Shown: positions 44,168 to 64,000 of the stretch, piece after piece
How the letters are laid out: the number at the start of each line of letters is the position of its first letter
Position numbering within the stretch: position 1 is the stretch's first letter
DNA from: Larkinella rosea
Lineage (GTDB): Bacteria; Bacteroidota; Bacteroidia; Cytophagales; Spirosomataceae
Direction of reading: 5' to 3'
Length of the DNA: 64,000 bases
Assembly (NCBI RefSeq): GCF_003858635.1
Contig: NZ_RQJO01000007.1
Location: 1,737,941-1,801,940 of the forward strand
Program-made: the position numbers and the translations under genes
Notes under the pieces: generated by a model
The model's input: only the letters and a program-made list of their open reading frames with translations
Told to the model about the DNA's origin: nothing
Database searches by the model: none

Positions 44168-44793
44168 TCGGATCAACTCCTTATCAACCTATTTTCATCG
44201 GTAAATATACCACCAAAAAACAACCCGGAAACAGGAAATGTAGCGGATAAAATGCGGGAGGGCTTCGTCAAATATTCCTTCGTGTTTGTTGATGACACCG
44301 TACTACCAATTCGAAACCGCCACACCGCCATCGTCTTTCAGCGCTTTAGCGACAATCACGGGACCGTCGGCGTATTGCCGGGCGAGGGAAAGCTGGGTGC
44401 GGGTTTTGGCTAAATCCGGCGAAGCTGGTTGATTTTATTCGGCCCGTACGGCAACCCGGCCGAAACCGCCAGCACAATAAGGAGCCAGAGAAAAATCTCC
44501 ACGGCTCATTAACATAAACCGCTATTAATCAAAAAGTAAGAACTAGAGTGAGCGACTATTTAGCAACCGGTAATCAGTCGATAACCGCCAACATTATGAA
44601 TGAGAAATTGGTCTGGCACATTGCCAATGCCCGCCTATTGAATGAACTGCGATATGAACGAATCGATAAAATGAAGAAATACCAGACAAAATCAGGTCCT
44701 TGATGGGGAGTTTGCCGATTTTTACTCAACAGAAACGCTGTTTATGTTACTAACAAAAGAATATATTTACAAATTGTATTAGGGGATGTCTTG
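44168..44793. other. Gap with a coding remnant and an upstream region for the AraC-TPR gene
   Basis: Between divergent genes, this gap holds a probable frameshifted coding remnant on the minus strand (44303-44502) and nothing else I can support. A 35-codon open frame at 44596-44703 (plus) has no recognisable features. Just upstream of the AraC-TPR start the sequence is AT-rich and lacks the 12-bp units found before other genes of this region. Confidence 0.5.
44303..44502 (-). pseudogene. Possible degraded small gene (frameshifted)
   Basis: On the minus strand a GTG at 44502 opens a frame starting VEIFLWLLIVLAVSAGLPYG, a typical membrane or signal segment, that stops at 44410. A second frame overlapping it (44434-44303) continues with SPDLAKTRTQLSLARQY, then ADGPVIVAKALKDDGGVAVS, and ends NW-stop. 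Both read protein-like and would join with a single-base shift near 44415-44434, giving about 66 residues. I do not recognise the family. A sequencing error could also explain the shift. Confidence 0.3.
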
Positions 44794-46719: not shown

Positions 46720-46858
46720 TGCTTGTTTGGATTAATTTCCAATAAATTCTCCGAAATGAACCCGTAATGCAATTCTCAACCGAGTCTTATTTGTATTTTT
46801 ACCAACCGTAACCCTAAAATCACCGATCGGCCCCACCGATTGCTCGGCCTAACTCAAG

Positions 46859-48793
46859 ATGAATTCTGGCGATTCATTCCGTTCAAGACTGGACTCACTC
46901 ATTGAACGCAACCTGGCAGATCCGTCGCTTTCCATTGAAACCATTTGCCGGGAACTGGGCGTAAGTCGCTCCAGTTTGCACCGGCTAGTTAAAGAAGAAA
47001 CGAATTTGTCCGTTACGCTGTACATTCGCCAGTTTCGGCTGGAAAAAGCCCGGACCCTCCTCAAAACCAGTGAATTACGCAGTGTGGAAATTGGCGAATT
47101 GGTTGGAATTCCAAATCCCCAGAATTTCAGCAAGTATTTTACCGAATCCTTCGGGGCCAGTCCGTCCGAATTTCGGAAGCTCCCGGCAGAGACTACAACT
47201 GTGGCACCCGAACGGGTCGACATCGCCATGGAACCCGAGCTTGTTCCTCAACCACCCCGGCAATCCGCAACGGTTTTTAAAAACCGGTCCAGAAACCGTT
47301 ACCTCTTTATGGCGCTGGCCCCGGTGGCGTTAACAAGTCTGGGCCTGTACATTGGGGTACTATTCGGCCGGCAACCTGTTAAAAATCAAACTGAAACGGA
47401 ATTTAACAGTTCGATTGCCATTTTGCCCTTCCAGAATCTGGGAACACCCGAAACCCAGTACTTCAGCGAGGGGGTTCGGGAGGAAGTGCAGGCTGTTTTG
47501 GCTTATTTGCCCCGCATCAAAGTAATTTCCCGAACGTCCACGCGGGCGTACGAAGGAACGGCCAAAACCGTACCGCAGATTGCCCGTGAACTCGGCGTGG
47601 TGTACCTGCTCGAAGGCAGCGCACTCCAGTCGGGCAACCGCATCAAACTATCGGTCGAGCTGATTAAAGCGGAAGAAAACCAGACCGTCTGGATCAAAAC
47701 GTACGAAGGAGAAACGAAAGACCTGTGGACGTTTACCAGCACCGTTGCCAAAACCATTGCGGGGGAATTGGACCAGCAGCTCAGCAGTGCCATCCGGCAG
47801 AAAATGGATAAAGCTCCCTCCCGACAGCCAGCCGCGTATACCGAATACCTCAAAGGACAACACTTCCTGCGGGCCCGAACCAAAGAAGGGCTGGCCAATA
47901 GCCTGATCAGTCTGGACCGGGCCATTGCCCTGGATTCCGGTTTTGCGGAAGCTTACGCCAGCAAGGCGCAGGTGTATTTTCTAAACATCGAGGAAGGATA
48001 TACTGACGCCGACAGCAGCCTGAAACTGGCCGAAAAAAATGCCCTCACCGCCATCCGGCTCGATCCCGAAAATGCGAACGCCTTCGCCATGCTGGCCAAA
48101 TTTTATCAGCGCCAGAACAAGTGGGAACAAGCCCTCACCACCATGCGGATTGCGCTTCGCTATCAGCCCAACAATGCCCTGAACAATTACTGGTACAGCC
48201 TCATGCTTCGCTCCGTAGGCGAAACCGATCAGGCCATTCAGTACAGCACTAAAGCCCTGCACATCGATCCGCTGTTTCCGGTGATCATGATCGGTCATCT
48301 GGGTAACCTGACCTACGCCGGACGGTTTGAAGAAGCCCGACAGGTCATGCAGGAAGGGCAGCGGTTGCACGGTACGGTATATGCCTGGTACTGGAGCACC
48401 GCGTTTTATTATATCAATCAGAACCGGTTTCCCGAAGCCCTCCGTGAACTGGAAAAGGGGCAGCAGCTCAACCCCGATGCCAATCCATTTCTGGTTTATA
48501 TCGCGTATGTAAAAGCCCGCATGAAGCAACCCGCTGCGGCCCGGTCTCTGCTGACTTCCCTGCCGGACGATGAAAGCAATTATTCCAATCGGGCCGTTCT
48601 CTACGCCGGGCTGGGCGACGCAAACCACTGCCTGATTTTTCTCGAAAAAGGAGCCAATGGAGGCTCCCTTCCCAATTATCTGAAAGTATCGCCCTTATTC
48701 CGGTTTGTACAGAATACGCCCCGGTTTCGGGCCGTTCTGCACAAAGTGGGCCTGGATCAGTCCGTTTTGCCCTCTGCTGACACAATACACTAA
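46859..48793 (+). CDS. AraC-HTH / membrane / TolB-like / TPR regulator 2
   Basis: The 644-aa protein has the same layout as regulator 1: AraC HTH at about 5-110 (IETICRELGVSRSSLHRLVKE, IPNPQNFSKYFTESFGASPSEFR), membrane segment at about 150-170 (YLFMALAPVALTSLGLYIGVLFG), TolB-like domain at about 182-300 (SIAILPFQNLGTPETQYFSEGV, YLLEGSALQSGNRIKLSVELI) and TPRs to the end. The last codons and the stop overlap the first unit of array A (48783-48836). It directly precedes the lipoprotein and giant surface-protein genes and is their most likely local regulator (inference from position). Confidence 0.88.
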   Translation: MNSGDSFRSRLDSLIERNLADPSLSIETICRELGVSRSSLHRLVKEETNLSVTLYIRQFRLEKARTLLKTSELRSVEIGELVGIPNPQNFSKYFTESFGASPSEFRKLPAETTTVAPERVDIAMEPELVPQPPRQSATVFKNRSRNRYLFMALAPVALTSLGLYIGVLFGRQPVKNQTETEFNSSIAILPFQNLGTPETQYFSEGVREEVQAVLAYLPRIKVISRTSTRAYEGTAKTVPQIARELGVVYLLEGSALQSGNRIKLSVELIKAEENQTVWIKTYEGETKDLWTFTSTVAKTIAGELDQQLSSAIRQKMDKAPSRQPAAYTEYLKGQHFLRARTKEGLANSLISLDRAIALDSGFAEAYASKAQVYFLNIEEGYTDADSSLKLAEKNALTAIRLDPENANAFAMLAKFYQRQNKWEQALTTMRIALRYQPNNALNNYWYSLMLRSVGETDQAIQYSTKALHIDPLFPVIMIGHLGNLTYAGRFEEARQVMQEGQRLHGTVYAWYWSTAFYYINQNRFPEALRELEKGQQLNPDANPFLVYIAYVKARMKQPAAARSLLTSLPDDESNYSNRAVLYAGLGDANHCLIFLEKGANGGSLPNYLKVSPLFRFVQNTPRFRAVLHKVGLDQSVLPSADTIH

Positions 48794-48836
48794 CTTTTTG
48801 ACACAATACACTAACTTTTTGGGCTAATACACCAAC
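48783..48836 (+). promoter_or_regulatory. Array A: three direct 12-bp units, 21-bp spacing
   Basis: Units CAATACACTAAC (48783-48794), CAATACACTAAC (48804-48815) and TAATACACCAAC (48825-48836) are spaced 21 bp start to start, about two helical turns, so they lie on one face of the DNA. The linkers are TTTTTGACA and TTTTTGGGC. The array ends 46 nt before the lipoprotein start and includes the stop codon of regulator 2. Tandem direct repeats at about 21 bp are a usual pattern for AraC-family binding sites. A weak -7-like CAATTTTG lies at 48858-48865. Confidence 0.75.
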
Positions 48837-48882
48837 AGCCATTGCCGGGTAGGGTAGCAATTTTGTAACCAAAATCCGGTTT

Positions 48883-49428
48883 ATGAAACCTGTCCTCGTC
48901 CTGCTGCTAGTCCTGAATCTGGCCTGTGCGCCCCCTTCCTCCAATGGCCTTCCTGACGGCTACGAAACGGCGGCTCCGGCCTACCTCGTCCTTACCCAGA
49001 AAGCCCTTTCCTACCAGGCCGACTTCGATACCGAAGCCTGGGGGCAAATGCTGACCGACAGCGTTGAATTCATTACGCCCGACGGGCAAGTGGTCTGGCA
49101 CGGCAAACCGGCGGTGCTGGCGGGCTGGCAACAATGGCGGAAGCAGGTCGGGGCAGAGCGAATGTACCTGACGGATTTGACGAGCCTGCCGATTCAGATT
49201 ACGGAACCCGTCCCCCTTTGGGAGAAAACCGGGGTCTATGTCGTCTCCTACTGCACCGCCCACCTAATGCTGCGGAATGGCCGACAAACTGATTTACTGC
49301 TGAACCTGTGTTGCCACTTCGATGCCTCGGGTCATATTGACCGCTATCTGTTCCTGCACCAGCAACCCGCAAGCGATCTCATCACCCGAAAACCGGTACC
49401 GGTTTTGAAAACCGCCTTTCATTTCTAA
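48883..49428 (+). CDS. NTF2/SnoaL-like lipoprotein
   Basis: The 181-aa protein has a short lipoprotein signal ending NLAC (Cys at residue 15) followed by APPSSNG. The body (LSYQADFDTEAWGQMLTDSVEFITPDGQVVWHGKPAVLAGWQQW, YCTAHLMLRNGRQTDLLLNL, HFDASGHIDRY, seen in order) has the pattern of a SnoaL/NTF2-like cone fold, which can bind small ligands or act as a scaffold. No catalytic residues can be assigned. It lies between array A and the giant surface protein, 18 nt upstream of the latter, so they are probably cotranscribed and the lipoprotein may assist or accompany the surface protein. Confidence 0.8.
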   Translation: MKPVLVLLLVLNLACAPPSSNGLPDGYETAAPAYLVLTQKALSYQADFDTEAWGQMLTDSVEFITPDGQVVWHGKPAVLAGWQQWRKQVGAERMYLTDLTSLPIQITEPVPLWEKTGVYVVSYCTAHLMLRNGRQTDLLLNLCCHFDASGHIDRYLFLHQQPASDLITRKPVPVLKTAFHF

Positions 49429-49446
49429 CGTTCAATTCTTATTTGT

Positions 49447-52400
49447 ATGCCTCTGTCCTACCACCCTATTCATCTCCTTCCGGGTTTATGCCGGGCGACG
49501 GTCCTGCTTCTGTTGTGGGCCGTAGTAACCACCCAACCCGCCTTTTCCAACCCGCCGACGCCAACCCAAACCACCTGGACCGGCAGCACCAGTTCCGACT
49601 GGGCGACCGCCGGAAACTGGTCGGACGGGGTTCCTACAACGACGCTCGACGTGATCATTCCCAACGTCACCCGTTCACCCCAGATCGGAAACGGAACCCT
49701 GGCCGTGGCCAAATCGGTGGAGATTCAGAACGGGGCTTCGCTGACGATTGCCAGCGGAGGCAGCCTGACCATCAACAACTCAAGATTTCTGATCCTGGAG
49801 GGCGGGAGGTCCTACGTCATGGCTTTCTACAACGATGGAACGGTCCAGAACAATGGGCAACTAATCCTTGGGAATACCGCCAACGCGGGTATTTATGGGT
49901 TGGTCAACAGGGGTAGTTTCAACAATAATAGCGGGGCCTCCCTTCAGATCGATCGAATCGAAACCTATTCCTTCTACAACGAAGTCGGCACGGTGACCAA
50001 TGCTGGTACGGTTACCCTCGGATCTCTGGCTTCGACCAGCACGTTTGGTCTGTATAACAAAGCGACCTTCACCAATACGGGCCGCATCCAGATCGACCGA
50101 ATGGCAACGTATGGGTTGCTCAACGAAGCTGGCACCTTCACCAATACGGCGACAATCAGTATCGGTTCGTTGGCATCGACTGGCACATATGGCATTAGTA
50201 ATGAGAGTACGTTTAACAACAATACGGGGGGAATCATCCAGATTGACCGAGCAGGAACGTACGGTTTATATAATGAATCAGGAACGTTTACCAATGCGGC
50301 TGCCATCACGATTGGTGCCGCTGTCGAGGCCTCAGCCGGTGTAAATGGCATAGGCAATTTCCAGGGGACTTTCATCAATGATGCAGGGGGAAGTATTCAG
50401 ATCGATCGAACCGAATCGGTTGGCTTACAAAATATGTCCCCCGGAACGTTTACCAATGCCGCCACTATCACAATCGGATCGATTGCATCAAAGAACGCAT
50501 ACGGTCTTGACAATCAGAGCACATTCAACAATAACGCTGGAGGAATTATTCGGATTGACCGATCAAAAACGTACGGTTTAAACAACAACTCCGGTACATT
50601 CAACAATGCGGCCACCCTTATTATTGGTGGTTCGTTTGAAATAGGAAACTCGGGTTTATATAATAGTGCCATCTTCAACAACAATACCGGGGGAAGCATT
50701 CAGCTTGATCGCTCAACCTACAACGGAATAAAGAACAGCGGTGGGACATTTACGAACGTGGCCCTCATCAACATCGGAGCTTCGACGGGTTTTACGGGTA
50801 TTCGAAACGACGCTACGTTTGCCAACGGCTGCGGAGGGGCGATCACTACCCAAAACATCATTGAGAATGCACGCACCTTTACCAATAGTGGTGCGATCAT
50901 TGAAAAGGCCAGTGGCAACAGCTCCATTTCCACCAACACCGGTCTGGTGCAGAACTTAAACGGGGGTACTTTTACCATTACGACCAATACCGGCAGCCTC
51001 ATCACGACAGAGGGTGTATACTGGAGAGGTTGCTTTAACACCGACTGGGCGACGGCATCCAACTGGAGCAAAGGACTCGTCCCCACGGCCTCCGACGATG
51101 TGGTGATCCCGACCGGAACCACTTATCAGCCGATAATCGGTGCCAGCACGAACGCCGTCGTGAATTCGATTGAGGTTCAAACGGGGGCTACACTGACCCT
51201 GGCCAGTTCGAGCACCCTGACCGTCAACGGTTATAAGACCGTGCAGGATATCACCAGCCCTTTCTCAAACGCCGGAACCGTCACCAACAACGGATTGCTC
51301 CAACTTGGCAACTCCGTCTCCGTCGGTCTTTCCAATACTGGTACATTTACCAACAATTCCTGCGCCGAATTCCGCCTGCGGGCGGGTCTTTCCAATACCG
51401 GCACATTGACCAACGGTGATTTGATGACCGTGATAACGGTAGCGACGCACACCAATACCAGCGGTCTGGTTAACAATGGGATCATTGAGTATCCGCTGGG
51501 AAACCCCATTTCCAACGTAACCAACAACGACCTGATTGTCAAAAACTTTACCAGTTGCCGTTCGATATCACCCGCCCTGCAACTCGGGAGCAGCAACAGT
51601 TTCCAGGTCAGTTCGACCTGGTATAAGGATCAGAATATGACTCAAACCGGGGGAACCTACAATCAGGAAACCAACACCTTTACCGTTACCAGCCTGGACG
51701 AAGGGCGTACGCATACGCTGTATTTTACCGTCGTCGACAATGCCAACCAATGTACCCGGAACATGTCGGTTTCGGTCGAGATCAGCAACACGCCATCGGT
51801 TTCCATCAGCGGAAACCCCTCCCTGACTATTACACCGGGTACTAGTGTGACCCTGACCGCCAGCGGAGCCAACTCTTACACCTGGTCTACGGGTGAAATA
51901 ACCAGCAGCATCACCGTTTCCCCTCTTACTTCGACGGAGTACTCACTCACGGGTGTCAGCGGGCTTTGTTCAGGCATTGCCAGTCAAACTGTCACGGTGG
52001 CAAATCCCGCCAGCGCCACACTTTCGGGCAGCACCACCCTCTGCCCTGGTCAACCCGCCACGCTCAGCGTCGATCTGACCGGAACCGCCCCCTGGTCGCT
52101 GACCTACACCGACGGCTCCACCCCCGTCGTGCTTACCGACATCACCACGTCACCCCATACGTTCACGGTCAACCCCGGTACCACCACCACCTATTCCTTG
52201 CTGGGCGTTGCCACCGCCGAAGCGCCGACCAACGGAACCGTCAGCGGAACCGCCACCGTCACCCGAAACTCCGTCGCGTCAGCCCCCGTCCTGACGCCTT
52301 CCAGTACGAGCGTCGTCCAGAATACGCCTGACGTGACACTGACCATCAGCGGATGTTCCAGCGGGGTTACCTGGACGGGTCCGAACAATACCAGCGGAAC

Positions 52401-54246
52401 CCAAACCACCATCAATGCGCCTACCTCGGCCATTGCCACCCTGGTCTACTCCGCCACCTGCGTCAGCACCTGCCCGGCCCCACCCGGTTCGGCCACCATT
52501 ACCGTGACCGCTCTTCCCGCCAGCGCCACACTTTCGGGCAGCACCACGCTTTGCTCCGGTCAACCCGCCACGCTCAGCGTCGCCTTAACCGGAACCCAAC
52601 CCTGGTCACTGACCTACACCGACGGCACCACACCGGTTGTGCTGACGGGAATAACCGCGTCGCCCCATACGTTCACCGTCAACCCCGGCATAACAACCAC
52701 CTATTCCTTGCTGGGTGTTGCCACCGCCGAAGCCCCGGCCAACGGAACCGTCAGCGGAACCGCCACCGTCACCCGAAGTTCCGTCGCGCCCATGCCCGTT
52801 CTGACACTGTCCAATACGAGCGTGATTCAGAATACGCCTTTTGTCACCCTAACCATCAGCGGTTGTGCCAACGATCTCAACTGGTCGGCCAACAATAACA
52901 CCAGCGGGACCGGCACCACCATCAACGTGCCCACTTCCGCTGTCGCGACCCTCGTCTATTCGGCCACCTGCGTGAGCGCTTGCCCGGCCCCGCCCGGTTC
53001 GGCCACCATCACCATCACCGCGCCCACCGCCACGGGTAGCTTCGACGGTTTTGTCAACGGCGCCGACTGCGGTTCTTTCCGGGGCTGGGCCTGGGATCGC
53101 AGCAAACCCAACACTGCCTTTTCCGTCGATATTCTGGACGGGCCCAACGTGATTGGGACGCTGCTGGCGGGCGATTTTCGGCAGGATTTGCTCGATGCGG
53201 GCAAAGGCAACGGCAAACACAGTTTCCGATTCACGATTCCCGAATCGATCAAAGACGGCTTGCCCCACAACCTTTCGGCCCGCATTGCCGGGAGCAGTTT
53301 CATGCTAAAGGATTCCCCCAAAGCCTTGATCTGCCAGAGCAGCACCACCCCGGTGGGCAACAAACCGCCGGTTCCGCCCACGCCCACGGTCTTGATTGCC
53401 CCTCTGACTGCGCAGGTTGGGGTGGCCTTCTCGGGGACGCTGGTGGCTTTCACCGATCCCGAAGGACAACCGCTGACCTACAAACTCAGCGGTTTGCCCG
53501 GCGGTTTGTCGATCAGCGAAACCAGCCGTGTCATCAGTGGAACGCCCACCGCCGACGGAACTTTCGTCTTGACCTATTCGGCCACCGATTCCGACGGAGC
53601 GACCAACTCGGTCAGCTTCAATCTGATGGTGAATCCGGCGCAGACCACCACCGTAACGGGAAATTTTGAAGGGTATCTGGACAAAGTCGAATGCGGCACG
53701 ATTCGCGGCTGGGTCTGGGACCGCAACAAACCCAACACCCCGGTGACGGTCGAATTCTACACCGGCAGCACGGTTTGGGGCAGCACCATCGCCAACATTT
53801 ACCGGGACGATTTGAAGAATGCCGGCAAAGGCAACGGCGTTCATGCCTACAGTTTCGAGGTTCCGGCCAGTCTGAAAGACGGCACCACGCGGTTGATTTA
53901 CGGCCGGGTGCAGGGAAGCACCTTCGTGTTGAAGGATTCGGGCAAACCGCTGACTTGTGGCTCGCCCGCCCGGCTATCGGCGGAAACCGGTTCGGAACTG
54001 TCGGTGACGGTGTTAGGCAATCCGGTGACCGATCAGGTTGAATTGGAAATCCGGGGCGCAGCCGGTCAGTCGGTCAACCTGCACCTCAGTGATGCCAGTG
54101 GTCGATTGGCGAACCAGCATCGGATTGAACTGGCAAAACCGGTTGAGCGGTACTCGTTCGCGGTCGGGCAGCAACCGGCCGGGTTGTTGCTGCTGCGGGT
54201 GAATACGGCCTGGAAAACCGTAACCCTGAAAATGGTGAAAAATTAA
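49447..54246 (+). CDS. Giant repeat-containing surface protein with T9SS C-terminal domain, protein 1
   Basis: The 1599-aa protein has a signal peptide (cleavage near AFS, residue 35). A stretch of about 50-residue repeats follows (about 130-480, see 49945-50712), rich in N, G, T and I, likely a parallel beta-helix. A second copy of the opening motif TDWATASNWS is near 533. Then come an Ig-like region, two 170-residue units (about 853 and 1023), a GFVNGADCG...GWAWDR domain (about 1196-1300), a putative-Ig (He_PIG-like) domain (about 1312-1398), a second GYLDKVECG...GWVWDR domain (about 1401-1504) and a type IX sorting-type domain (about 1508-1599, VLGNPVTDQVELEIRG to the end). It should be exported through the outer membrane and displayed or released as an adhesin. 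It lies 18 nt after the lipoprotein gene. Confidence 0.88.
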   Translation: MPLSYHPIHLLPGLCRATVLLLLWAVVTTQPAFSNPPTPTQTTWTGSTSSDWATAGNWSDGVPTTTLDVIIPNVTRSPQIGNGTLAVAKSVEIQNGASLTIASGGSLTINNSRFLILEGGRSYVMAFYNDGTVQNNGQLILGNTANAGIYGLVNRGSFNNNSGASLQIDRIETYSFYNEVGTVTNAGTVTLGSLASTSTFGLYNKATFTNTGRIQIDRMATYGLLNEAGTFTNTATISIGSLASTGTYGISNESTFNNNTGGIIQIDRAGTYGLYNESGTFTNAAAITIGAAVEASAGVNGIGNFQGTFINDAGGSIQIDRTESVGLQNMSPGTFTNAATITIGSIASKNAYGLDNQSTFNNNAGGIIRIDRSKTYGLNNNSGTFNNAATLIIGGSFEIGNSGLYNSAIFNNNTGGSIQLDRSTYNGIKNSGGTFTNVALINIGASTGFTGIRNDATFANGCGGAITTQNIIENARTFTNSGAIIEKASGNSSISTNTGLVQNLNGGTFTITTNTGSLITTEGVYWRGCFNTDWATASNWSKGLVPTASDDVVIPTGTTYQPIIGASTNAVVNSIEVQTGATLTLASSSTLTVNGYKTVQDITSPFSNAGTVTNNGLLQLGNSVSVGLSNTGTFTNNSCAEFRLRAGLSNTGTLTNGDLMTVITVATHTNTSGLVNNGIIEYPLGNPISNVTNNDLIVKNFTSCRSISPALQLGSSNSFQVSSTWYKDQNMTQTGGTYNQETNTFTVTSLDEGRTHTLYFTVVDNANQCTRNMSVSVEISNTPSVSISGNPSLTITPGTSVTLTASGANSYTWSTGEITSSITVSPLTSTEYSLTGVSGLCSGIASQTVTVANPASATLSGSTTLCPGQPATLSVDLTGTAPWSLTYTDGSTPVVLTDITTSPHTFTVNPGTTTTYSLLGVATAEAPTNGTVSGTATVTRNSVASAPVLTPSSTSVVQNTPDVTLTISGCSSGVTWTGPNNTSGTQTTINAPTSAIATLVYSATCVSTCPAPPGSATITVTALPASATLSGSTTLCSGQPATLSVALTGTQPWSLTYTDGTTPVVLTGITASPHTFTVNPGITTTYSLLGVATAEAPANGTVSGTATVTRSSVAPMPVLTLSNTSVIQNTPFVTLTISGCANDLNWSANNNTSGTGTTINVPTSAVATLVYSATCVSACPAPPGSATITITAPTATGSFDGFVNGADCGSFRGWAWDRSKPNTAFSVDILDGPNVIGTLLAGDFRQDLLDAGKGNGKHSFRFTIPESIKDGLPHNLSARIAGSSFMLKDSPKALICQSSTTPVGNKPPVPPTPTVLIAPLTAQVGVAFSGTLVAFTDPEGQPLTYKLSGLPGGLSISETSRVISGTPTADGTFVLTYSATDSDGATNSVSFNLMVNPAQTTTVTGNFEGYLDKVECGTIRGWVWDRNKPNTPVTVEFYTGSTVWGSTIANIYRDDLKNAGKGNGVHAYSFEVPASLKDGTTRLIYGRVQGSTFVLKDSGKPLTCGSPARLSAETGSELSVTVLGNPVTDQVELEIRGAAGQSVNLHLSDASGRLANQHRIELAKPVERYSFAVGQQPAGLLLLRVNTAWKTVTLKMVKN
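49945..50712 (+). repeat. Six in-frame repeats of about 50 codons
   Basis: A conserved block encoding (Q/R)-(I/L)-D-R starts at 49945, 50089, 50239, 50398, 50551 and 50701, with spacings of 144, 150, 159, 153 and 150 nt, all multiples of three. Each unit reads roughly F-N-N-N-x-G-G-x-I-Q-I-D-R, then T-Y-G-L-x-N-x-S-G-T-F-T-N-A-A, then I-T-I-G. Such regular strand-turn repeats suit a parallel beta-helix. Less regular relatives occur in the protein at 58555-63141 (for example [12 protein letters not shown]). Confidence 0.85.
52006..53035 (+). repeat. Tandem duplication with 510-nt period inside giant protein 1
   Basis: The segment beginning CCCGCCAGCGCCACA at 52006 begins again at 52516, and the two following stretches stay closely similar to about 53030. 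Each unit encodes about 170 residues with [49 protein letters not shown] and CPAPPGSATIT. A third related copy is in the other giant gene from about 61405. The pattern points to recombination or gene conversion between units. Confidence 0.85.
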
Positions 54247-54263
54247 CGGAAGCGTGAAACGAG

Positions 54264-54300
54264 AAATCCCCGCCCGGCCGTTGCCGGGCGAGGGATTTTT
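54264..54300. terminator. Terminator between convergent genes
   Basis: CGCCCGGC (54271-54278) pairs with GCCGGGCG (54283-54290) around a CGTT loop. The stem continues with AAATCCC/GGGATTT past one bulged A, and a T-run follows on the plus strand. It ends 33 nt from the sigma-fusion stop and can serve the giant-protein gene, possibly both convergent genes. Confidence 0.85.
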
Positions 54301-54333
54301 ATATCAAACCGAAAAATCATGGTCGGGATGATT

Positions 54334-55785
54334 TTATTCCGCCAGCGTTATTTCAACGGCACCAATTTTCCCTTTATCGCCGTATTTTTCAATGGCTTCC
54401 TTTTCCTTCAATTTGACCAGCCGGTATTTTTTTTCGGACAGTTTAACGGTTTCGTTTAATTCCCGGGGCGTTCCGTCAACGATCAGACAACTTATTTTGC
54501 CGAACAAGGAAAATTTTCCACTGCCCGTAAACTTCTGGGTGTTCAGATTGACCTTCACGTTGTTTCCCCGAAAATACACCTGGTTATTATCGGCCGACCA
54601 AAATAATTCCGAGGCATAAAATGTACCGTGCATTTCCTCCGAATCCGTTTTGATCGTTGGTTTCAGTAGCTCAATGGGCCGCGTGGTCTCGAACGAAGCG
54701 GTTTTTGCAACCTCCTGACTTTTACTCGGAATGAGCTGAGGGGCCCTGGTCAAGTGGCTGGTCGAATCGAGCGCCAGCGCCGAGGTGGTCAGGAGCAGGG
54801 CACTAACTGTGTTTAACGATTTCATATTCTTGCTGTTTAACGTTTTTTCACTTGGTAAGATGCCATTCTTTGAAAAGGTGGCAGTGGAAGCAGCAAGATT
54901 TAAAAACTTTTTAGCAACCCTGTTTTCTAAATTGAAACCGGAAACGCTGCTCATCACAGGCACCGGTTTTTCGGATTTGATCGCTTTTTTCAATTCTGTC
55001 CCCGGCTTCCAATGCAGCCAGAAAACAACGGCCAGGTTCATGACCATTGCCAGCGAAGCAACATTCGTCAGCAGAAAACCGGGCGAAAAACCGCTGGTGG
55101 TTTTGAACATTGGCGCTGAAACCGTACCAAAACCGGTAGGGTTGATTGGCGATATATTCCGCGGTTGAAGCTCCAACCGCCTTAATTTTCCCGTCAAAAA
55201 ATGATCGATTTTCAAAAACCGGTCGGGCAGCAAAAGCAGGAGTAAAAACCGCTTTCTTTTTTTGCCCTCGTTTGCCTTATGAATAAGAATCTCCCGGATT
55301 TTCTTCCGGGCCCGCGCCAGATGCGACTTTGACGTTCCCTCGCTGATGCCCAATTCCGCCCCGATTTGGGCGTGCGTGAACTGGTCAAAGACATAGAGAT
55401 TAAACACGAGTTTATGGTGCTCAGGTAACCGTCCAACGGCGTCCAGCAACTCAGCTGCCGAGAAACCAGGTTCGTCGCCGGGCTGGTGTTCGTTCGGGAA
55501 ATCAATGAAGGCTGTCTCGCGGGCAATCCGGTCTTCGTGCGCTTTCCGTTTTTTCTGCTGCCGCAGGTATTGCAAAGCCATATTGACGACGATCCGGCGA
55601 AACCAGCCCTCGAACGATCCTTTGTTTTCAAAGCTCGACGCTTTATCGATGGCAACCAGAAAGGCATCATGCGCCAGGTCTTCGGCGGTTTGCCGGTTGC
55701 GGGTATACCGGTAACAAACGCCAATCATTTTAGCGATGTGCTGCCTGTACGTCGCTTCCCAAAAATGGCTGGTGACATCATTCAT
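54334..55785 (-). CDS. ECF sigma factor fused to a membrane segment and TonB-plug-like C-terminal domain
   Basis: One open frame of 483 residues. Sigma region 2 lies at about 12-80 (TRNRQTAEDLAHDAFLVAID, WFRRIVVNMALQYLRQQ) and region 4 at about 115-168 (LPEHHKLVFNLYVFDQFTHA then IGAELGISEGTSKSHLARAR). A basic linker is followed by a membrane segment at about 242-262 (LLTNVASLAMVMNLAVVFWL). The last 160 residues contain a signal-peptide-like stretch MKSLNTVSALLLTTSALA starting at residue 321 and end with VDGTPRELNE, YGDKGKIGAVEITLAE. That ending resembles the plug-type motif at the C-terminus of Bacteroidota TonB receptors and BlaR1-like proteins. An internal start at 54825 could make the tail as a separate exported protein. 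It may be a self-contained sigma/anti-sigma protein (inference). Confidence 0.82.
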   Translation of the reverse strand: MNDVTSHFWEATYRQHIAKMIGVCYRYTRNRQTAEDLAHDAFLVAIDKASSFENKGSFEGWFRRIVVNMALQYLRQQKKRKAHEDRIARETAFIDFPNEHQPGDEPGFSAAELLDAVGRLPEHHKLVFNLYVFDQFTHAQIGAELGISEGTSKSHLARARKKIREILIHKANEGKKRKRFLLLLLLPDRFLKIDHFLTGKLRRLELQPRNISPINPTGFGTVSAPMFKTTSGFSPGFLLTNVASLAMVMNLAVVFWLHWKPGTELKKAIKSEKPVPVMSSVSGFNLENRVAKKFLNLAASTATFSKNGILPSEKTLNSKNMKSLNTVSALLLTTSALALDSTSHLTRAPQLIPSKSQEVAKTASFETTRPIELLKPTIKTDSEEMHGTFYASELFWSADNNQVYFRGNNVKVNLNTQKFTGSGKFSLFGKISCLIVDGTPRELNETVKLSEKKYRLVKLKEKEAIEKYGDKGKIGAVEITLAE

Positions 55786-55939
55786 ACAGACAATGATGCT
55801 TTTTTTTCAGAAGGTGGCAGTTTTTGCGAATTAAATTAATCAATCTTTGAACAACTGAAGCAGCGGTTCTTCCGAAAAAAGAAAAGTACGTCAGGTGGGT
55901 ATCTGACGCACATCCGTTCCTAAAATACGGCATTTGCAA

Positions 55940-55992
55940 TAATATACGAAGCAATGCAACAATACACAAAGTTTTTGGCACAATACCAGAAG
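55940..55992 (+). promoter_or_regulatory. Array B: three direct 12-bp units, 20/21-bp spacing
   Basis: Units TAATATACGAAG (55940-55951), CAATACACAAAG (55960-55971) and CAATACCAGAAG (55981-55992) are spaced 20 and 21 bp. The linker after unit 2 is TTTTTGGCA, as in arrays A and C. The array lies in the 379-nt gap between the divergent sigma-fusion gene (start 55785) and AraC-TPR regulator 3 (start 56165), about 170 nt before the latter, so it may mediate autoregulation. A -7-like AAACTTG is at 56014-56020. Confidence 0.72.
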
Positions 55993-56164
55993 ACTTTTGG
56001 CGGCAAAAACCGGAAACTTGCAGGGATGAAATCCGTTCGCTGTCGCTTTAAGTTTTCACCAACCAAGCAGCCGCTGACGGAATAGCGATGCGGTTTTACA
56101 ACCAAAACGTATTACTTTTCATTCAAAAACCGTCCAACAATACCGTACTTGATCCAGGGAGTTT

Positions 56165-57913
56165 ATGACGCAGACCGGCAATGGAGTTCTGACTAAGTTA
56201 AATACTTTCTTAGATGAAAATCTAAGCCATCTGGCGCTGCCGTCGGATGCAATTTGCCGCAAGGTTGGGTTGAGCCGGTCGCATTTGTACCGGATTATCA
56301 AAGAACATACGGACTTATCGATTACACTCTACATCCGTCAAAAACGCCTGGAAAAATCCCGTGAGCTGCTGACCGAAACGGATTTGCGGGTTTCGGAAAT
56401 CGCTTACCTCGTCGGCATCGAAAGTCCCCAGAATTTCAGCAAATATTTCGCCAGCGCTTTTCATCTGAGCCCGACCGAGTACCGGAATCAGGCCCAGCTC
56501 GGAAAAACCGCTCCGGTTTCTCCCCCGGTCCCGAAAGCCTCCATTGCCGTTTTGCCGTTTTTGAACCTCAGCAACGATGCTGACCAGGAGTTTTTCAGCG
56601 ACGGTGTAACAGAAGAAATCATCAACGCCCTGAGCCACGTGCCCGACTTGCAGGTTGCGGGCCGAACCTCGTCGTTTGCGTTCAAAGGGAAAAATCAGGA
56701 TCTCCGGCAGATTGGCGAACAGCTCAATGTGACGCACATTCTGGAAGGAAGCGTCCGGAAAGCGGGCCAGAAACTTCGCATTACGGCGCAGTTGATCAAG
56801 GTCGCCGACGGTTATCACGTCTGGTCGGAGAAGTACGACCGGGAGTTGAACGATATTTTTGACATCCAGGACGAGATTGCGCTCGCCATTTTAAAGGAAG
56901 TTAAAGTGCAGTTGCTGGGCGTCAACCAGAACGCGGTGCTTAAACGATATACCCTAAACGCGGATGCGTACCTGCTGTATCTGCACGGGCGGTTTTATCA
57001 CAACAAGTTCGCAGGTTTCGACGAGTTCAACCGGGCGATTGGTTATTTTCAGTCGGCGATTGATCGGGAACCTACTTATGCCATTGCCTACGCCGGCATT
57101 GCTTCCTGCTACCTGAATATGTGGTTTTATCGGCACCTGCCGTCGGCGGTTTGCCTGCCGCTCATGAAACAGGCCACGGAACAGGCCATTCAACTGGACA
57201 ACACGGTTCCGGAAAGCTACCTGGCCCTGGCCCGGATGCAATTACTGTATCAGTGGGATTTTTCCAGTGCGGCTACATCCTTTAAAAAAGCGCTGGAACT
57301 CAACTGGAATACCGCCGAACTCTACGGTCAATATGCGCTCTATTGGGGTCTTATGGGCTACCACGCCAAGGCGGAGGAGCAAATCCGGCTGGCGCTAACG
57401 CTGGAACCGTTTTCGCTGATCAATAATTTTTACGCGGGGTATGGCTACTGGATGGCGGGAAAGTTTGAAAAAGCCATCGATCAGGGGAAACGGCTGGCCG
57501 CACTCGAACCCACCTTCTGGGGCGGACACCTGATTACAGGCCTGAATCTGATCACGTTACAAAACTACGCAGAAGCTCGTCCGGCACTGGAAACCGCCCT
57601 GCATCTTCATTACAACGGCATCACACTCAGCGCGCTCGGGGCGCTGTGGGGCCTGACCGGCGAAACCGAAAAAGCCCGGCAGGTGCTGGCCGAAATGGAA
57701 ATTCTGAACACAACCCAGGCGGTGGCGCAGTATGACCGGGGCATCGTCCATGCCTGTTTGGGCGAGGTTGAAACCGCCTGCGGTTATTTTCAATCGGCCA
57801 TCGACCAGCACGAACCGCCGATGTTGTTTTTCCGTTTCATTGTCCGGGACTGGCTGGCGGGAAGCCGGTACGACGCTCAATACGAACGACTCATTCGGCA
57901 ACTGGTTCACTGA
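56165..57913 (+). CDS. AraC-HTH / TolB-like / TPR regulator 3 (no membrane segment)
   Basis: The 582-aa protein has an N-terminal AraC HTH (about 8-110: SDAICRKVGLSRSHLYRIIKE, IESPQNFSKYFASAFHLSPTEYR), directly followed by a TolB-like domain (about 125-245: SIAVLPFLNLSNDADQEFFS, VTHILEGSVRKAGQKLRITA) and TPR helices (about 270-580). Unlike regulators 1 and 2 it lacks a membrane segment between HTH and TolB-like domain, so it should be wholly cytoplasmic. Array B lies upstream and array C lies between it and giant protein 2. I infer that it, or one of its paralogues, binds these arrays. Confidence 0.88.
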   Translation: MTQTGNGVLTKLNTFLDENLSHLALPSDAICRKVGLSRSHLYRIIKEHTDLSITLYIRQKRLEKSRELLTETDLRVSEIAYLVGIESPQNFSKYFASAFHLSPTEYRNQAQLGKTAPVSPPVPKASIAVLPFLNLSNDADQEFFSDGVTEEIINALSHVPDLQVAGRTSSFAFKGKNQDLRQIGEQLNVTHILEGSVRKAGQKLRITAQLIKVADGYHVWSEKYDRELNDIFDIQDEIALAILKEVKVQLLGVNQNAVLKRYTLNADAYLLYLHGRFYHNKFAGFDEFNRAIGYFQSAIDREPTYAIAYAGIASCYLNMWFYRHLPSAVCLPLMKQATEQAIQLDNTVPESYLALARMQLLYQWDFSSAATSFKKALELNWNTAELYGQYALYWGLMGYHAKAEEQIRLALTLEPFSLINNFYAGYGYWMAGKFEKAIDQGKRLAALEPTFWGGHLITGLNLITLQNYAEARPALETALHLHYNGITLSALGALWGLTGETEKARQVLAEMEILNTTQAVAQYDRGIVHACLGEVETACGYFQSAIDQHEPPMLFFRFIVRDWLAGSRYDAQYERLIRQLVH

Positions 57914-58428
57914 TTCTTCGGGGAGAATTCCCCTTGTAGCCGGAAAATAGCCTGTCCGGCTACGATGAAACCCCTCGATCCATTCCGCGATTGGCCAAAC
58001 ATCCGACGACCGATCAGCTTTTGGCTGTTCCGGCCGGCCTTGCCCCTAACCGGTTTTTGTGGACTTGCCACCCCGGCTCTTCCCTGGTTAGCCGTGGAGC
58101 CCAAAGCGTCAAAAGCCTGAAATAAATCGTTTTATAGTTCCTATTCGCTTTTTGGGGAAAAGCATCCGACGGCTCCCAAATGCCTTTTTGTAACGGGGGC
58201 CATGAAATCAGCTCTATTTCTCTCTTTAATGGCCCATCGTTTTTTAATTAATACTCCTCCGATAACTAAATCCCCGGTTTCGGACAGTTTTAATATGCGT
58301 TCATCCTTGAATGCCTGATCTTAAAAATCATTTTTGTCACTTTTGCCCGTAAAACGCCCGGTGACCATTTCCGAATCACCGAACAACGAGGCTATGAGAT
58401 TTTTTTGATAAAAACCGCCTTCCTGCAA
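57914..58428. other. Long leader region before giant protein 2
   Basis: No gene is convincing here. A 51-codon frame at 57965-58120 (plus) has no recognisable features. The part at about 58203-58318 is similar to 63325-63455 downstream of giant protein 2, sharing AAATCAGCTC, CCGATAACTAAA, a TTTC-GACA-TTTT block and CATCCTT in the same order. It may be a duplicated leader or the remains of one. Confidence 0.5.
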
Positions 58429-58481
58429 CAATAAACAAAGTGATGCAACAATACACGAAGTTTTTGACACAATAACAGAAG
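58429..58481 (+). promoter_or_regulatory. Array C: three direct 12-bp units, 20/21-bp spacing
   Basis: Units CAATAAACAAAG (58429-58440), CAATACACGAAG (58449-58460) and CAATAACAGAAG (58470-58481) are spaced 20 and 21 bp, with linkers TGATGCAA and TTTTTGACA. The array ends 73 nt before the start of giant protein 2. A -7-like TAGCTTG is at 58502-58508, about the same distance from unit 3 as the matching element in arrays A, B and D. Confidence 0.78.
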
Positions 58482-58554
58482 CCTCATCGACAGCCTACGG
58501 CTAGCTTGCCGTGTCTAAATTCACTTCATTCTGTTCACCCATAATTCTTACTTT

Positions 58555-61500
58555 ATGAATGCTTTTTACAATTTTGTCCATTCATTTTTCATCCGAAACC
58601 GGCTGCTGCTGGGCGTTATTCTGGCGTACTTTACTGCTCTGTCGGCGATGGCCCAGACAACCAACACCTGGACTGGTTCCAGCAGTTCTGATTGGAACAC
58701 GTCGGCCAACTGGTCAGCGAATCACGTTCCACTGGCTACCGAAAATGTAGTGATTCCCGACGTAAGCCCCTATCCCGTCCTCAGTTCGACCGCGGTGGTG
58801 AACTCGGTGGAGGTGTCGGCCGCATCGTCGTTTACGATCACCGCTGCCGCTAGCCTGACCATCAACGGGTCGATGGCTGCTAGTCCCTATTCCTATGCTT
58901 TCTTCAACTGGGGCACCGTCTCGAATAGTGGGCAGGTAGTCATTAGGATGACGGAAAGCGTCGGACAGGTTGGTTTGTTTAACCGCGGGGGCGGGGGAGG
59001 ACGCGGTTTTACCAATAACGCAGATGCCAGTGTTCAAATTAACGGTTCTTCCTACGCGGGTATCTATAATACGTCCACATTCAATAATGGGGGTGCCATC
59101 ACCATCGGAGCTTCGGCCAGCGTGGGGGAATATGGCGTCTATACCAGTGGGGGGTTTTACAACAATACCGGTGGAATTCTTTCCATCGACCGAGCAACCG
59201 AAGCAGGGTTTTATAATCCGGGCGGTATCTCACCCAACGATGGCACCATCCGGATCGGTTCTCTGGCCCCCATGGGACCGGTTGGTTATAATAACAGTGG
59301 ATTTAATTTGACAACCAATAGTGGAATCATCACAATTGACAATACAACTACAAATGCCTTTTTAAACAACAGCTCATTTAAGAACACTGGGTCCATCACC
59401 ATCGGGGCGCTGAGTCCGGTTGGTGCTGAAGCGATTCGGCTTACTAATACTTTCACCAACGACGGCTGTGGGGCGTTGGTCGACATCCGGGCTGATGCCG
59501 TGATCACGACAACCAATGCCAGTTCTAATCGGTTCAATAATAACGATGGTGCGACGATTATCGAGCGCGCCAGTGGCACCAGTACCATTTACAATAATTC
59601 GGGTTTGGTTCGAAATCTCAACGGGGGAACCTTCACGATCACTAATAGCAACACCGGAGTACTTACCACCGACGCTGGCATTACCGCCAATCCCTCACTG
59701 ACCATTACGCAGGGACAAAGCACCACCCTAACCGCGGAAGGAACCGCGCCCTACACCTGGTCATCGGGACAAAACACCCAATCCATTGAAGTGACCACCT
59801 CCGGCCCCTATTCGGTCACGAGTACCCTGGCGAGTTGTACCCGGGTTTCCAGTGTGACCGTTACTGTTAATGCTCTTCCCTGCGGAACTGTTGTGTATGT
59901 GACGCAGAACGGGGCCGGTTCGCAGGATGGTTCGAGTTGGGATAATGCCTATCCGGGAACGGCTCTCCAGACGGCCATCAACACGGCAGCTACGTGCGGA
60001 GCGCAGGTGTGGGTGGCCCAGGGCCTCTATAAACCCACCGCCGACAATAACCGTGAAATCAGTTTTTCGATGAAAAACGGCGTGGCCATCTACGGCGGTT
60101 TTGCGGGTAATGAAGCCGCCAATTACGACCTGTCGCAGCGGAATCTAGTCACCAACCAAACCATCCTCAGTGGCGATATCGACGACGGTGGGACGCTCGC
60201 CAACAATAGTTACCACGTTATTTTCAATGAAAGTGGGCTAACAACAACAGCTATTCTGGATGGTTTCGTCATCACCGGTGGCTATGCCAGTGAAACGGGT
60301 GGCCAAAATAAGGCTATTGGTGGCGGGATGTTAAATAATGGCGTATGCAGCCCCACGGTTCGCAACTGCTCCTTTGTGGGCAACTTTGCTGAAAATGGTG
60401 GTGCCATCAATAATAATGGGCGTGGTACAGGTAACAGTAGTCCGGTGTTGACCAATTGCTCCTTTCAAAGCAATACGGCTGTCAGGGGTGCGGCCATTTA
60501 CAACCTTGGTATTACTTCGGGTAACAGCAGTCCAACACTGACCAATTGCTCCTTTCAAAGCAATTCTGCCACCCAGGGCGGGGCTCTCTACAACTATGGG
60601 AGTGGCGGCAGCAGCAATCCGACGTTAACCAACTGTGTATTTTTCGGTAATGGAGGGAGTAATACGATCTTCAATGCAGATGCTAGCCCTACGGCATCGT
60701 ATAGTCTGTTCGAGACCGGAGCAAGCGGTTACTCGGGTAGTAATAACCAGACCGTTAGTGTTACACCCTTTGCCAGTTCCACCTCTCCCGAACTTGCTCC
60801 CAATTCACCGGCCATCGATGCGGGTGACCCCGCTACCACCTCTGCCACGATTGGAACCACGGATTTAGCCGGTAACCCACGTTTTGTGAGACAACTTGAC
60901 ATGGGCGCCCTGGAATTTCAGGGAAGTATCAGTCTGACGCTGGTCACCTCGGCCACTCCCAACCCGGTTTGCGCAGGCACTACCGTGGCGTTGTCGGTGA
61001 CGGCTTCGGGTGGTACCGCCCCCTACTCTTACACCTGGACGGCCCCGGCGGGCATTACCCTCTCGGCCACCTCCACCAGCGCCGTCTCGGCCAGCATCGG
61101 AGCGGCTATCAGTGGGGTACAAACCCTGACCATTACGGTTGCGGCATCGGGCGGTTCGCCTACCAGCACCAGTCTGGTGACTATTTCGGTTAATCCGGTG
61201 CCTTCGGTCAGCATTACCGCCAACCCTTCCCTGACCATTGTCCAGGGACAAAGCACCTCTTTAACGGCTTCCGGTGCCGATTCGTACCTCTGGTCCACTA
61301 CCGAAACCAGCTCCGGGATTTCTGTCAGCACTGCCGAACCCTATTCCGTCACCGGCACCACCTCGGGTTGTTCCAGCAGTACCACCGTGACGGTAACCGT
61401 CATCAATTCGGCCAGCGCCACGCTGTCGGGCAGCACCACCCTGTGTCCCGGCCAACCTGCCACCCTCAGCGTGGCGCTCACCGGAACCCAACCCTGGTCA

Positions 61501-63141
61501 CTCACCTATACCGACGGAACCACGCCCATCAACGTCAGCGGAATTACCTCCTCACCCTACACCTTTACGGTCAATCCCGCCGGAACGACAACGTATAGTT
61601 TAGTCGCGGTCGCTACCGCTGAAGCACCCGTCAACGGCGTCGTCAGCGGATCGGCCACCGTAACCCGAAGTACCGTCGCGTCGGCGCCCACGCTGACGCC
61701 GTCCAGCCAGAGCATAATTCAGAATACGCCTTTCGTCACCCTGACCATCAGCGGTTGTCCGGGGGCACTCAACTGGTCGGCCACTAACAGCACCAGTGGA
61801 ACCGGCACCACCATCAACGTACCCACGTCCGCCGTCGCGACCATCGTCTATTCGGCCACCTGCGTGAGTTCCTGCCCCACTCCACCCGGATCGGCCACCG
61901 TTACCATCACGGCCCCAACCACCACCGGCAACTTTGACGGGTTTGTCAATGGCGCCGATTGCGGCTCCTTCCGCGGCTGGGCCTGGGATCGGGGCAAACC
62001 CAATACGGTTTTCTCTGTCCAGATCCTCGATGGGCCCAACGTCATCGGGACCCTGGCTGCCGGGGATTTCCGTCAGGATTTGCTCGATGCGGGGAAAGGC
62101 AACGGCAAACACGCCTTCCGCTTCACCATTCCCGACAACCTCAAAGACGGGTTAGCCCACAACCTCTCGGCCCGGATTGCGGAGAGTAGCTTCATTCTGA
62201 AAGATTCGCCCAAAGCGCTCATCTGTCAGGGCGGCACCACCCCGCCCGCCAACAAACCGCCGGTTGCTCCTTCGCCCACGGTGTTGATTGCGCCTTTGGC
62301 CGCCCAGGTCGGTGTGCCGTTTTCGGGAACCCTGGCGGCTTTCACCGATCCCGAAGGAGGAGCGTTGACTTATGATCTGGTGGGTTTGCCCAATGGCTTA
62401 ATGATCAATACCACCAGCCGCGTTATCTCGGGAACGCCCACCGTTGCCGGCGACTTTGTCCTGACCTATACGGCCACCGATCCGCAGCTTGCCACCAACT
62501 CGGTCAGCTTTGTGCTGACCATCAGCGCTCCAATGACCACCACCGTGACCGGGAATTTTGAAGGGTATCTGGACAAGGTGGAATGCGGCACAATTCGCGG
62601 CTGGGTTTGGGATCGCAACAAACCCAACACCCCGGTGACCGTCGAATTCTACACCGGCAGCACGGTTTGGGGCAGCACCATCGCCAACATTTACCGGGAC
62701 GATCTGAAGAATGCGGGCAAGGGCAATGGCGCTCACGCCTACAGTTTTACGGTCCCCACTGACCTGAAAGACGGCAATACCCGATTGATTTACGGCCGGG
62801 TACAGGGCAGCACCTTTGTGTTGAAGGATTCGGGAAAACCGCTGACCTGCAACTTACCCACCCGCTTATCAGCCGAAACAACGTCGGACTGGCAGGTGAC
62901 GGTGTTGGGCAACCCGGTTTTAGGTCAGACCGTTGCAGTTGAAATCCGGGGGGCCGAAGGACAACCATTGCGGTTTTCGGTGACGGATGTACAAGGCCGG
63001 ATCGTAGGGGAACAGAACGTGGAGAATGCAAAATCCGTCGAACGGCAAACGTTGTCGATTGGTAAAACCGCTCCCGGTATTCTGCTGCTGCGGGTGAACA
63101 CGCCAACGATTTCCAAAACCGTGAAACTGGTCAAACCGTAA
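58555..63141 (+). CDS. Giant surface protein with beta-helix, polymorphic-repeat region and T9SS C-terminal domain, protein 2
   Basis: The 1528-aa protein has a signal peptide (cleavage near AMAQ, residue 34). An N-terminal region resembles giant protein 1 ([11 protein letters not shown], then N/G/T-rich repeats). A right-handed beta-helix region follows at about 450-785: [20 protein letters not shown] opens it, repeats LTNCSFQSN with GGA(I/L)YN are like polymorphic membrane proteins, and SPAIDAGD...DLAGNPRF...DMGALEFQ is a choice-of-anchor-Q-type end. Then come Ig-like units (from about 950), GFVNGADCG...GWAWDR (about 1128), a He_PIG-like domain, GYLDKVECG...GWVWDR (about 1335) and a type IX sorting-type domain (about 1439-1528). 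The C-terminal third is nearly the same as in giant protein 1. It should be displayed on or released from the cell surface. Confidence 0.88.
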
Positions 63142-63170
63142 AAACGGGTTTGAATAAATTGTTCCTGCTA

Positions 63171-63222
63171 CTGCCCAAATTCGGCAAACCGGCTCGAAAA
63201 CTGGTTTGCCGTGTTTGGGCAG
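63171..63222 (+). terminator. Strong hairpin terminator after giant protein 2
   Basis: CTGCCCAAA (63171) pairs with TTTGGGCAG (to 63222), and inside it CGGCAAACC pairs with GGTTTGCCG, with a 2-nt internal loop between the two stems. AAATTTTATT follows. It lies 29 nt after the stop codon. Confidence 0.8.
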
Positions 63223-63239
63223 AAATTTTATTCCTGCAA

Positions 63240-63292
63240 CAATACACGAAGGAATGCAACAATAAACTAACTAATTGATAAAATAAGAGAAG
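63240..63292 (+). promoter_or_regulatory. Array D: three direct 12-bp units, 20/21-bp spacing
   Basis: Units CAATACACGAAG (63240-63251), CAATAAACTAAC (63260-63271) and AAATAAGAGAAG (63281-63292) are spaced 20 and 21 bp, the same geometry as arrays B and C. Unit 3 and the second linker (TAATTGATA) are more degenerate. No obvious gene starts within 600 nt downstream, so the target is either outside the window or lost. Confidence 0.68.
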
Positions 63293-63953
63293 TCCATTTT
63301 AATGCAATTAACCACCTTGTGGTCATTAAATCAGCTCGATTGGATGACCACTTTTTGGCCTACCAGCGAAGTGTTCTGCCAACGCTAACTTATAAACCGA
63401 TAACTAAAACAGCCATTTCAGACACTTTTATGCAACAACCATCCTTAAGCCGATTCCCGAATCGTGTTTATCGACAATTTTAATGACCAGCCTGAACTCT
63501 GCCGCCCAGTCATCCGCTGGAAAATGAGGCAATGTCAGTACCCTGATTAAACTGTTTTTGCGAACCAAATAGCCAATGAATCCATGAAACTCACGCGTAA
63601 ATTATCCCACCCAATAATGTCCCAGGAGCCCGGAACCGGTCGGAAAACCGCCCGGCCAATGTAAATACGACCCGGCTGTTGTCCGATTTCCGTAAACCGG
63701 TCAAAGTCGGAATTGGACAAAATGGTCGATTCGGGACCAACTCATACCCCGTTCGCTTTCTCACGAACAGCCCGCTCTTCATTACGTGCTGATGAGCTTC
63801 TGATGGGATGATTCCTGTCGGCCAATGTGCCCACGAATAATTCAGAACACCGATGGATTGAGCCTTTTCTTCTGGTCTTAACCGTAAAACCGCTCGCATT
63901 GACGGTCGTATTTTACGCCATTTTCCAAACCGTACCTTTTTCCCATATCCATT
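63293..63953. other. Gene-poor stretch after array D
   Basis: I see no convincing gene. Plus-strand frames are broken by frequent stops. A minus-strand frame of 125 codons (63591-63968) has a composition unlike the real proteins of this window and no recognisable motif. The first 160 nt resemble the leader at 58203-58318. The stretch could be a decayed gene once controlled by array D. Confidence 0.4.
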
Positions 63954-64000
63954 ATGCAGCCTTCGCATTTGCTGTCACCGCATGTCCAGCCCGTTCAGAA
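63954..64000 (+). CDS. Possible start of a gene running off the right edge
   Basis: An ATG at 63954 opens a frame MQPSHLLSPHVQPVQ that is still open at the window end. Fifteen residues are not enough to identify a family, and no ribosome-binding site is visible. It is listed only because array D upstream needs a target and the frame is open. Confidence 0.18.
   Translation, partial: MQPSHLLSPHVQPVQ

Follow-up and report, generated by a model that had tools for sequence, protein, structure and literature searches.

What do short direct-repeat arrays do beside the AraC-type regulator genes and giant secreted-protein genes of the bacterium Larkinella rosea? We addressed this question for a stretch of 64,000 nucleotides (contig NZ_RQJO01000007.1, positions 1,737,941 to 1,801,940; hereafter the window), which holds four such arrays (A to D), three regulator genes of the AraC-TolB-TPR kind (AraC1 to AraC3; TPR, tetratricopeptide repeat) and two giant genes. 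The arrays are very probably operators of these regulators, which would bind there and switch on the next operon. The best reading of them is as activator sites whose ends coincide with the expected position of a -33 promoter element.

Each array consists of three units and lies on the plus strand. Array A (48780..48836), with steps of 21 and 21 bp, is of a different type (type II, unit endings CTAAC, CTAAC and CCAAC) from arrays B (55937..55992), C (58426..58481) and D (63237..63292), which are all of type I with steps of 20 and 21 bp. In a weight-matrix scan, arrays A to D score 49.4, 54.4, 58.8 and 52.6 and are the sole chains of at least 18 in the window. Shuffling the window 100 times with dinucleotides preserved produced no three-unit chain, and the top score, 21.3, was that of a two-unit chain. 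The training set of the matrix included the window arrays in part, so that the independent test is recurrence in other genomes.

A preliminary description of this DNA, made from the letters alone, had reported four arrays with 20-21/21 bp spacing and had put array B upstream of AraC3. Both statements hold: the arrays are where it placed them, and the AraC3 gene begins at 56165, 3' of array B. Its claim that all four arrays are intergenic has to be amended for array A, which is not wholly so because the last 14 bp of the AraC2 gene lie inside it. No Rfam family matched at gathering scores between positions 44000 and 64000, that is, no RNA element was found there.

In the entire L. rosea genome (8.17 Mb), a profile made from 20 arrays finds five arrays (E 0.001), namely A to D and one outside the window, array E (G000:C11:1012200-1012254), near which no regulator was found. 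Patterns allowing up to three mismatches give the same five. Random scatter of matches over the genome, which according to the preliminary description would speak against a regulatory role, is thus not what we see. The strict pattern of that description, CAATAnnnnAAG, matches only once in this genome, and looser patterns were needed.

Applied to the GTDB-type family (222 genomes), the profile found 75 arrays in 35 genomes at the same threshold. With the patterns, 11 of 99 genomes gave a match, L. rosea included, while a reversed control matched in none of the 99. An exact scan of 84,980 species, which possibly did not cover the L. rosea genome, returned 21 stretches from Runella, Jiulongibacter, Emticicia, Lacihabitans, Larkinella, Spirosoma and Rudanella as well as from one Spirosomataceae and one Cytophagaceae bacterium. 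The genera looked up sit in the Spirosomataceae, Leadbetterellaceae and Cytophagaceae of the order Cytophagales (NCBI taxonomy), and those that could be matched fall in one GTDB-type family (f1). A class-wide scan for an array plus the promoter box described below matched in 1 of 395 genomes, with a pattern so strict that it misses L. rosea itself and is therefore poor evidence of absence in other genomes. A genome of another family (G095) gave a single match with 3 mismatches, which is probably due to chance.

The arrays of the family are found beside regulator genes. Thirty-three of the 75 lie at most 400 bp 3' of an AraC-TolB-TPR gene, and the strand is the same in 33 out of 33 cases; 3' flanks of this kind amount to about 1e-4 of a genome. 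This is the non-random placement beside AraC-TPR genes that the preliminary description had predicted. A further 16 arrays lie within 20 kb of a regulator gene, with the strand agreeing for all 49 of 49, and the remaining 26 are farther off or share no contig with a listed regulator. The list holds the 61 of 90 regulator matches with an open frame of at least 581 aa (29 shorter ones were left out). Five candidates were scored per genome, so some adjacent regulators were missed, for example one right by the array in L192. Across the 222 genomes, both elements are present in 29, only an array in 6, only a regulator in 7 and neither in 180 (Fisher p = 5.9e-24), a comparison in which the alignment and profile, partly built from array-found loci, favour close kin on both sides.

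We also applied a motif-free test, which takes the best three-unit self-similarity with 20-22-bp steps between -60 and +440 of the stop codon. From 85 regulator open reading frames (ORFs), 64 non-identical ones were kept, forming 42 clusters at 70% identity; identical sequences and those with less than 300 bp of 3' flank were dropped. A 3' score of at least 31 was reached by 20 of the 42 regulator clusters and, among other genes, by 11 of 229 (Fisher 1.8e-11, Mann-Whitney 1.9e-7), even with all null matches retained, the three highest of which are arrays of the same kind. On the 5' side of the regulators, just 3 of the 42 clusters score this high. The steps in the 29 regulators above 31 are 20/21 in 16, 21/21 in 12 and 20/20 in 1. 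In other families, repeats of three units lie upstream of the regulators of G069 (score 34) and G078 (score 32); they were rejected because the upstream null takes in such values (95% quantile 33.7, 99% quantile 41).

Some of the arrays that follow AraC-TPR genes have divergent unit sequences with an unchanged spacing of 20/21 bp: TGGTCAAATAAGGAAAG in L099, TGACCGTATTTTCTAAG in L125 and TGACCAACTATTACACA in L079. In genus group g32, four loci (L114, L115, L116 and L120) carry four-unit arrays after regulators, in which CAAATA-type and ACAATA-type units are mixed; for L120 the pattern test gave two.

The arrays keep a fixed distance to a promoter-like box. Two such boxes, both covering -12 to -5, are described from Flavobacterium psychrophilum (PMC9723704): TAnnTTTG, which is the -7 consensus for its primary sigma factor, and TAnnTTGY, which defines the SM5 promoters ascribed to alternative sigma factors. 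In the window, array A is followed after 21 bp by the -7-like box CAATTTTG (48858..48865, 5/6 to TAnnTTTG). Boxes closer to TAnnTTGY follow array B after 21 bp (AAACTTGC, 56014..56021, 5/6), array C after 20 bp (TAGCTTGC, 58502..58509, 6/6) and array D after 20 bp (CACCTTGT, 63313..63320, 5/6), all four boxes being on the plus strand.

The same distance recurs among 62 distinct arrays. Counted from the last unit, a TAnnTTTG box with at least 5/6 letters starts at +20 (38 arrays), +21 (5 arrays) or +41 (4 arrays), and every other offset is seen in 2 arrays at most; in the four +41 arrays a third unit was probably missed. Accepting either TAnnTTTG or TAnnTTGY, 51 of the 62 arrays have a box at +20/+21, whereas 200 shuffles gave 2.7 on average and never more than 7. 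A box at this distance is also present in 15 of 18 divergent-unit arrays, whose ends were set by eye (L111 is common to both array sets).

With the boxes at -12 to -5, the last array unit would end near -33. We propose that three regulator DNA-binding domains could occupy an array, one per 21-bp unit and all on the same helix face. The last unit, ending 20-21 bp before the -7 box, would reach to the position of the -33 element, and the bound regulator would touch RNA polymerase and so turn on the next operon, be it for giant surface proteins, SnoaL-like proteins or an exporter.

Alternatively, the AraC-TPR proteins could repress at the arrays, or act with a neighbouring extracytoplasmic function (ECF) sigma factor instead of the housekeeping one. 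Arrays B, C, D and E indeed fit TAnnTTGY better than TAnnTTTG, which would suit the alternative sigma factors to which SM5 promoters are ascribed. Furthermore, the gene of an ECF sigma factor with a long C-terminal extension (483 aa, 54334..55785, minus strand) is divergent from array B, and a relative of it, 79% identical, adjoins an array at L040:7541-8992; the ECF sigma factor may belong to the system. Nevertheless we regard this alternative as unlikely, since the TAnnTTTG-like box stands at +20 in 38 of the 62 arrays, and a site ending at -33 with no visible -33 box would fit activation.

Several observations weigh against the arrays being operators of the AraC-TolB-TPR regulators. At score 31, 22 of the 42 regulator clusters have no 3' array. 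In the window itself, AraC1 has no array within 440 bp, and the nearest array on the 3' side of AraC3 is 512 bp away. Related sequences are present among the 62 arrays, so that the box counts are not independent events. Likewise, the link between regulator residues and array bases given below is not independent of descent and has exceptions in L133 and L126. Finally, 6 array-bearing genomes have no listed regulator, and G002 has three arrays and no regulator at E 1e-60, possibly because the regulator was lost there. Locus L039 of that genome, which is of the same genus as L. rosea, has arrays beside a giant-protein gene and no full regulator at that threshold.

The six genomes, together with array E and several more arrays that have no regulator near, would be accounted for if the arrays were operators of some other protein, such as a free AraC protein or a response regulator encoded elsewhere, with the AraC-TPR genes as mere members of its regulon. 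We find this quite improbable in view of the genome co-occurrence (p = 5.9e-24) and the strand agreement in 33/33 arrays. The units moreover differ between regulator lineages at constant geometry, and tandem sites of 21 bp are what an AraC-type protein would be expected to read (PMC3878776). That the arrays are the debris of a mobile or self-copying repeat with no regulatory role, as several near-identical arrays inside 14.5 kb by paralogous giant genes might suggest, is hardly credible given the strand agreement, the fixed distance to the -7-like box, the recurrence at matching places in other genera, a mere five copies in 8.17 Mb and the absence of Rfam matches (44000-64000).

If AraC-TolB-TPR proteins read the arrays, what kind of regulator are they? 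AraC1 (44791..46719), AraC2 (46859..48793) and AraC3 (56165..57913), all on the plus strand, combine an AraC helix-turn-helix (HTH) with TPRs, the HTH scoring above both Pfam cut-offs (HTH_18 and HTH_AraC) in all three, which places the DNA-binding part in the AraC/XylS family. Judged by hydropathy alone, a membrane helix precedes the TPR-containing sensor part in AraC1 and AraC2 and is lacking in AraC3. The hydropathy peak after the HTH is 2.41, 1.94 and 0.98, respectively, and of 64 regulators 45 reach at least 1.6. As modelled by AlphaFold (predicted local distance difference test score, pLDDT, 83; predicted TM-score, pTM, 0.67), AraC2 has a CadC-like sensor fold and matches the periplasmic domain of CadC (3ly7, E 2.5e-7, TM-score 0.66 by target length, root-mean-square deviation 4.4), although several general TPR superhelices outrank 3ly7 among its matches.

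The preliminary description had given the regulators a TolB part as well, but Pfam finds no TolB domain in any of the three (E 0.001); it is this part whose fold is like that of the CadC periplasmic domain. At the same threshold none has HisKA, HATPase_c or Response_reg, and Pfam found no winged-helix (OmpR/PhoB-type) domain, the AraC-type HTH being the only DNA-binding part. The regulators are thus one-component proteins that carry an AraC domain on a CadC-like sensor. They do not belong to the HilA/EilA family, reaching only 67.8, 48.9 and 62 bits against PRK12370 (cut-off 589 bits).

Other forms of these genes occur. Short ORFs that match the regulators in the HTH part only, at L047:2545-2913 (122 aa) and L186:5361-5705 (114 aa), immediately precede an array plus an E1-type gene. 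In genus group g32, many genomes encode TolB-TPR homologues whose open frames span about 460-525 aa; in three of these (L141-L143), tested for a complete HTH at the N-terminus, none passed.

The operators araI1-I2 of AraC and Pm of XylS are also direct repeats with a step of about 21 bp, and their proximal site lies at the -35 element. Our arrays resemble these in unit spacing and in having the proximal site near a promoter element, but have three sites instead of two, and the regulators of araI1-I2 and Pm are soluble. The DNA-binding part of our regulators is nearest in sequence to 6swi and 12aw (response-regulator and hybrid two-component proteins). Of these, 12aw (E 2.3e-17) is a chain of a hybrid two-component system (HTCS). 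The Bacteroides HTCS proteins also use an AraC-type domain and are predicted to bind as monomers on one DNA face to two tandem direct repeats averaging 21 bp apart (PMC3878776). Unlike HTCS proteins, the window regulators have no histidine kinase and no receiver domain (Pfam); there are three sites instead of the two described for HTCS, and the HTH is N-terminal.

With CadC and ToxR they share an N-terminal DNA-binding domain, a single membrane helix (AraC1 and AraC2) and a sensor part of the CadC fold. They differ from CadC in having an AraC domain in place of a winged helix and in including AraC3-type members without a membrane helix. The CadC sites Cad1 and Cad2 lie farther upstream and are not tandem 21-bp arrays (PMC5430869). 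A literature search that covered few subscription papers turned up no description of such regulators or of their sites.

Next, we considered which regulator reads which array. Relatives of AraC2 (L038 and L040) precede type II arrays, and relatives of AraC1 (L037 and L044) precede type I arrays. The two array types, A on the one hand and B to E on the other, thus appear to go with two regulator lineages, and this pairing of kin makes AraC2 the likely reader of the type II array A and AraC1 the likely reader of the type I arrays B to E.

A residue-to-base code was tried and set aside. In the motif SR[ST]xLXR of HTH1, H at position X goes with AC before AATA in 31/31 classed regulators, and other residues go with CA in 7 and AC in 2. 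Along the starred branches of a tree of the TolB-TPR part there are 3 independent pairs, of which 1 is concordant and 2 have no array difference; with so few pairs, the code is not established.

Our judgement is evenly balanced on a broader proposal, namely that these proteins are undescribed sensor-bearing AraC activators in self-contained modules, each regulator reading its own diverged arrays of the same geometry. A module would run from the regulator gene through a three-site array at or after its 3' end and a gap of 20-21 bp to the -7 box and an operon for exported proteins. In paralogous modules the operator sequences would have diverged with the geometry kept, so that each regulator would read its own arrays. 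In two of the three window regulators the predicted helix would provide a membrane tether.

Such a full, testable grammar of regulator, operator, promoter-box distance and target operon, derived from sequence alone for a class without a described binding site, would let the targets of these regulators be read from genomes. Little is known of how surface proteins are regulated in these bacteria. The system would also reveal the workings of an AraC domain that is joined to a CadC-like sensor, and its diverged operator-regulator pairs would form a natural set for the study of recognition change.

We then examined the genes that follow the arrays, for which the preliminary description had predicted surface proteins. 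Giant proteins are among them, yet the targets are broader. Past array A comes a SnoaL/DUF4440-like gene (181 aa, 48883..49428, plus strand; a weak match to DUF4440, 23.2 bits versus a cut-off of 25.2), followed by giant secreted protein 1 (1599 aa, 49447..54246, plus strand). Giant secreted protein 2 (1528 aa, 58555..63141, plus strand) begins 73 bp past array C, and both giant proteins have a He_PIG domain. The first giant gene does not directly follow an AraC gene as had been described, since the 181-aa gene intervenes; the second starts 641 bp past the AraC3 gene. Against TIGR04183, the type A sorting domain of the type IX secretion system (T9SS; cut-off 23), giant protein 2 reaches 22.3 bits, a borderline T9SS tail, giant protein 1 has no match at E 0.001, and a Runella counterpart (L043:7412-13135) reaches 39.3.

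Array D is followed by the gene of a C39-peptidase ABC exporter, which starts 661 bp on at 63954 and leaves the window (L002:395-2593), and by a HlyD-like gene. The same exporter is found in Runella, where it comes after an AraC3-type gene and an array. Array E has a 256-aa secreted-type gene without a Pfam match (L013:10347-11117) 91 bp on, and then a SnoaL-like gene.

In a set of 65 distinct arrays, the first gene on the 3' side is co-directional in 62 of 64. By BLAST, these first genes encode giant proteins (12), SnoaL-like proteins (10), E1-type proteins (8), C39 ABC exporters (5), DUF418 proteins (4), outer-membrane barrels (3), a regulator (1) and others (21), with none in one case; the families were themselves taken from array neighbourhoods, and the counts are descriptive only. 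An upstream regulator is present at 35 of the 65, a fraction inflated by regulator-fetched loci in the set, which makes the 33/75 given above the fairer figure. The E1-type protein of L037 is predicted to consist of two ferredoxin-like domains (model pLDDT 73, against 51-56 for four other models), with a match to the anthrone oxidase-like protein 5f9p (E 2.4e-10).

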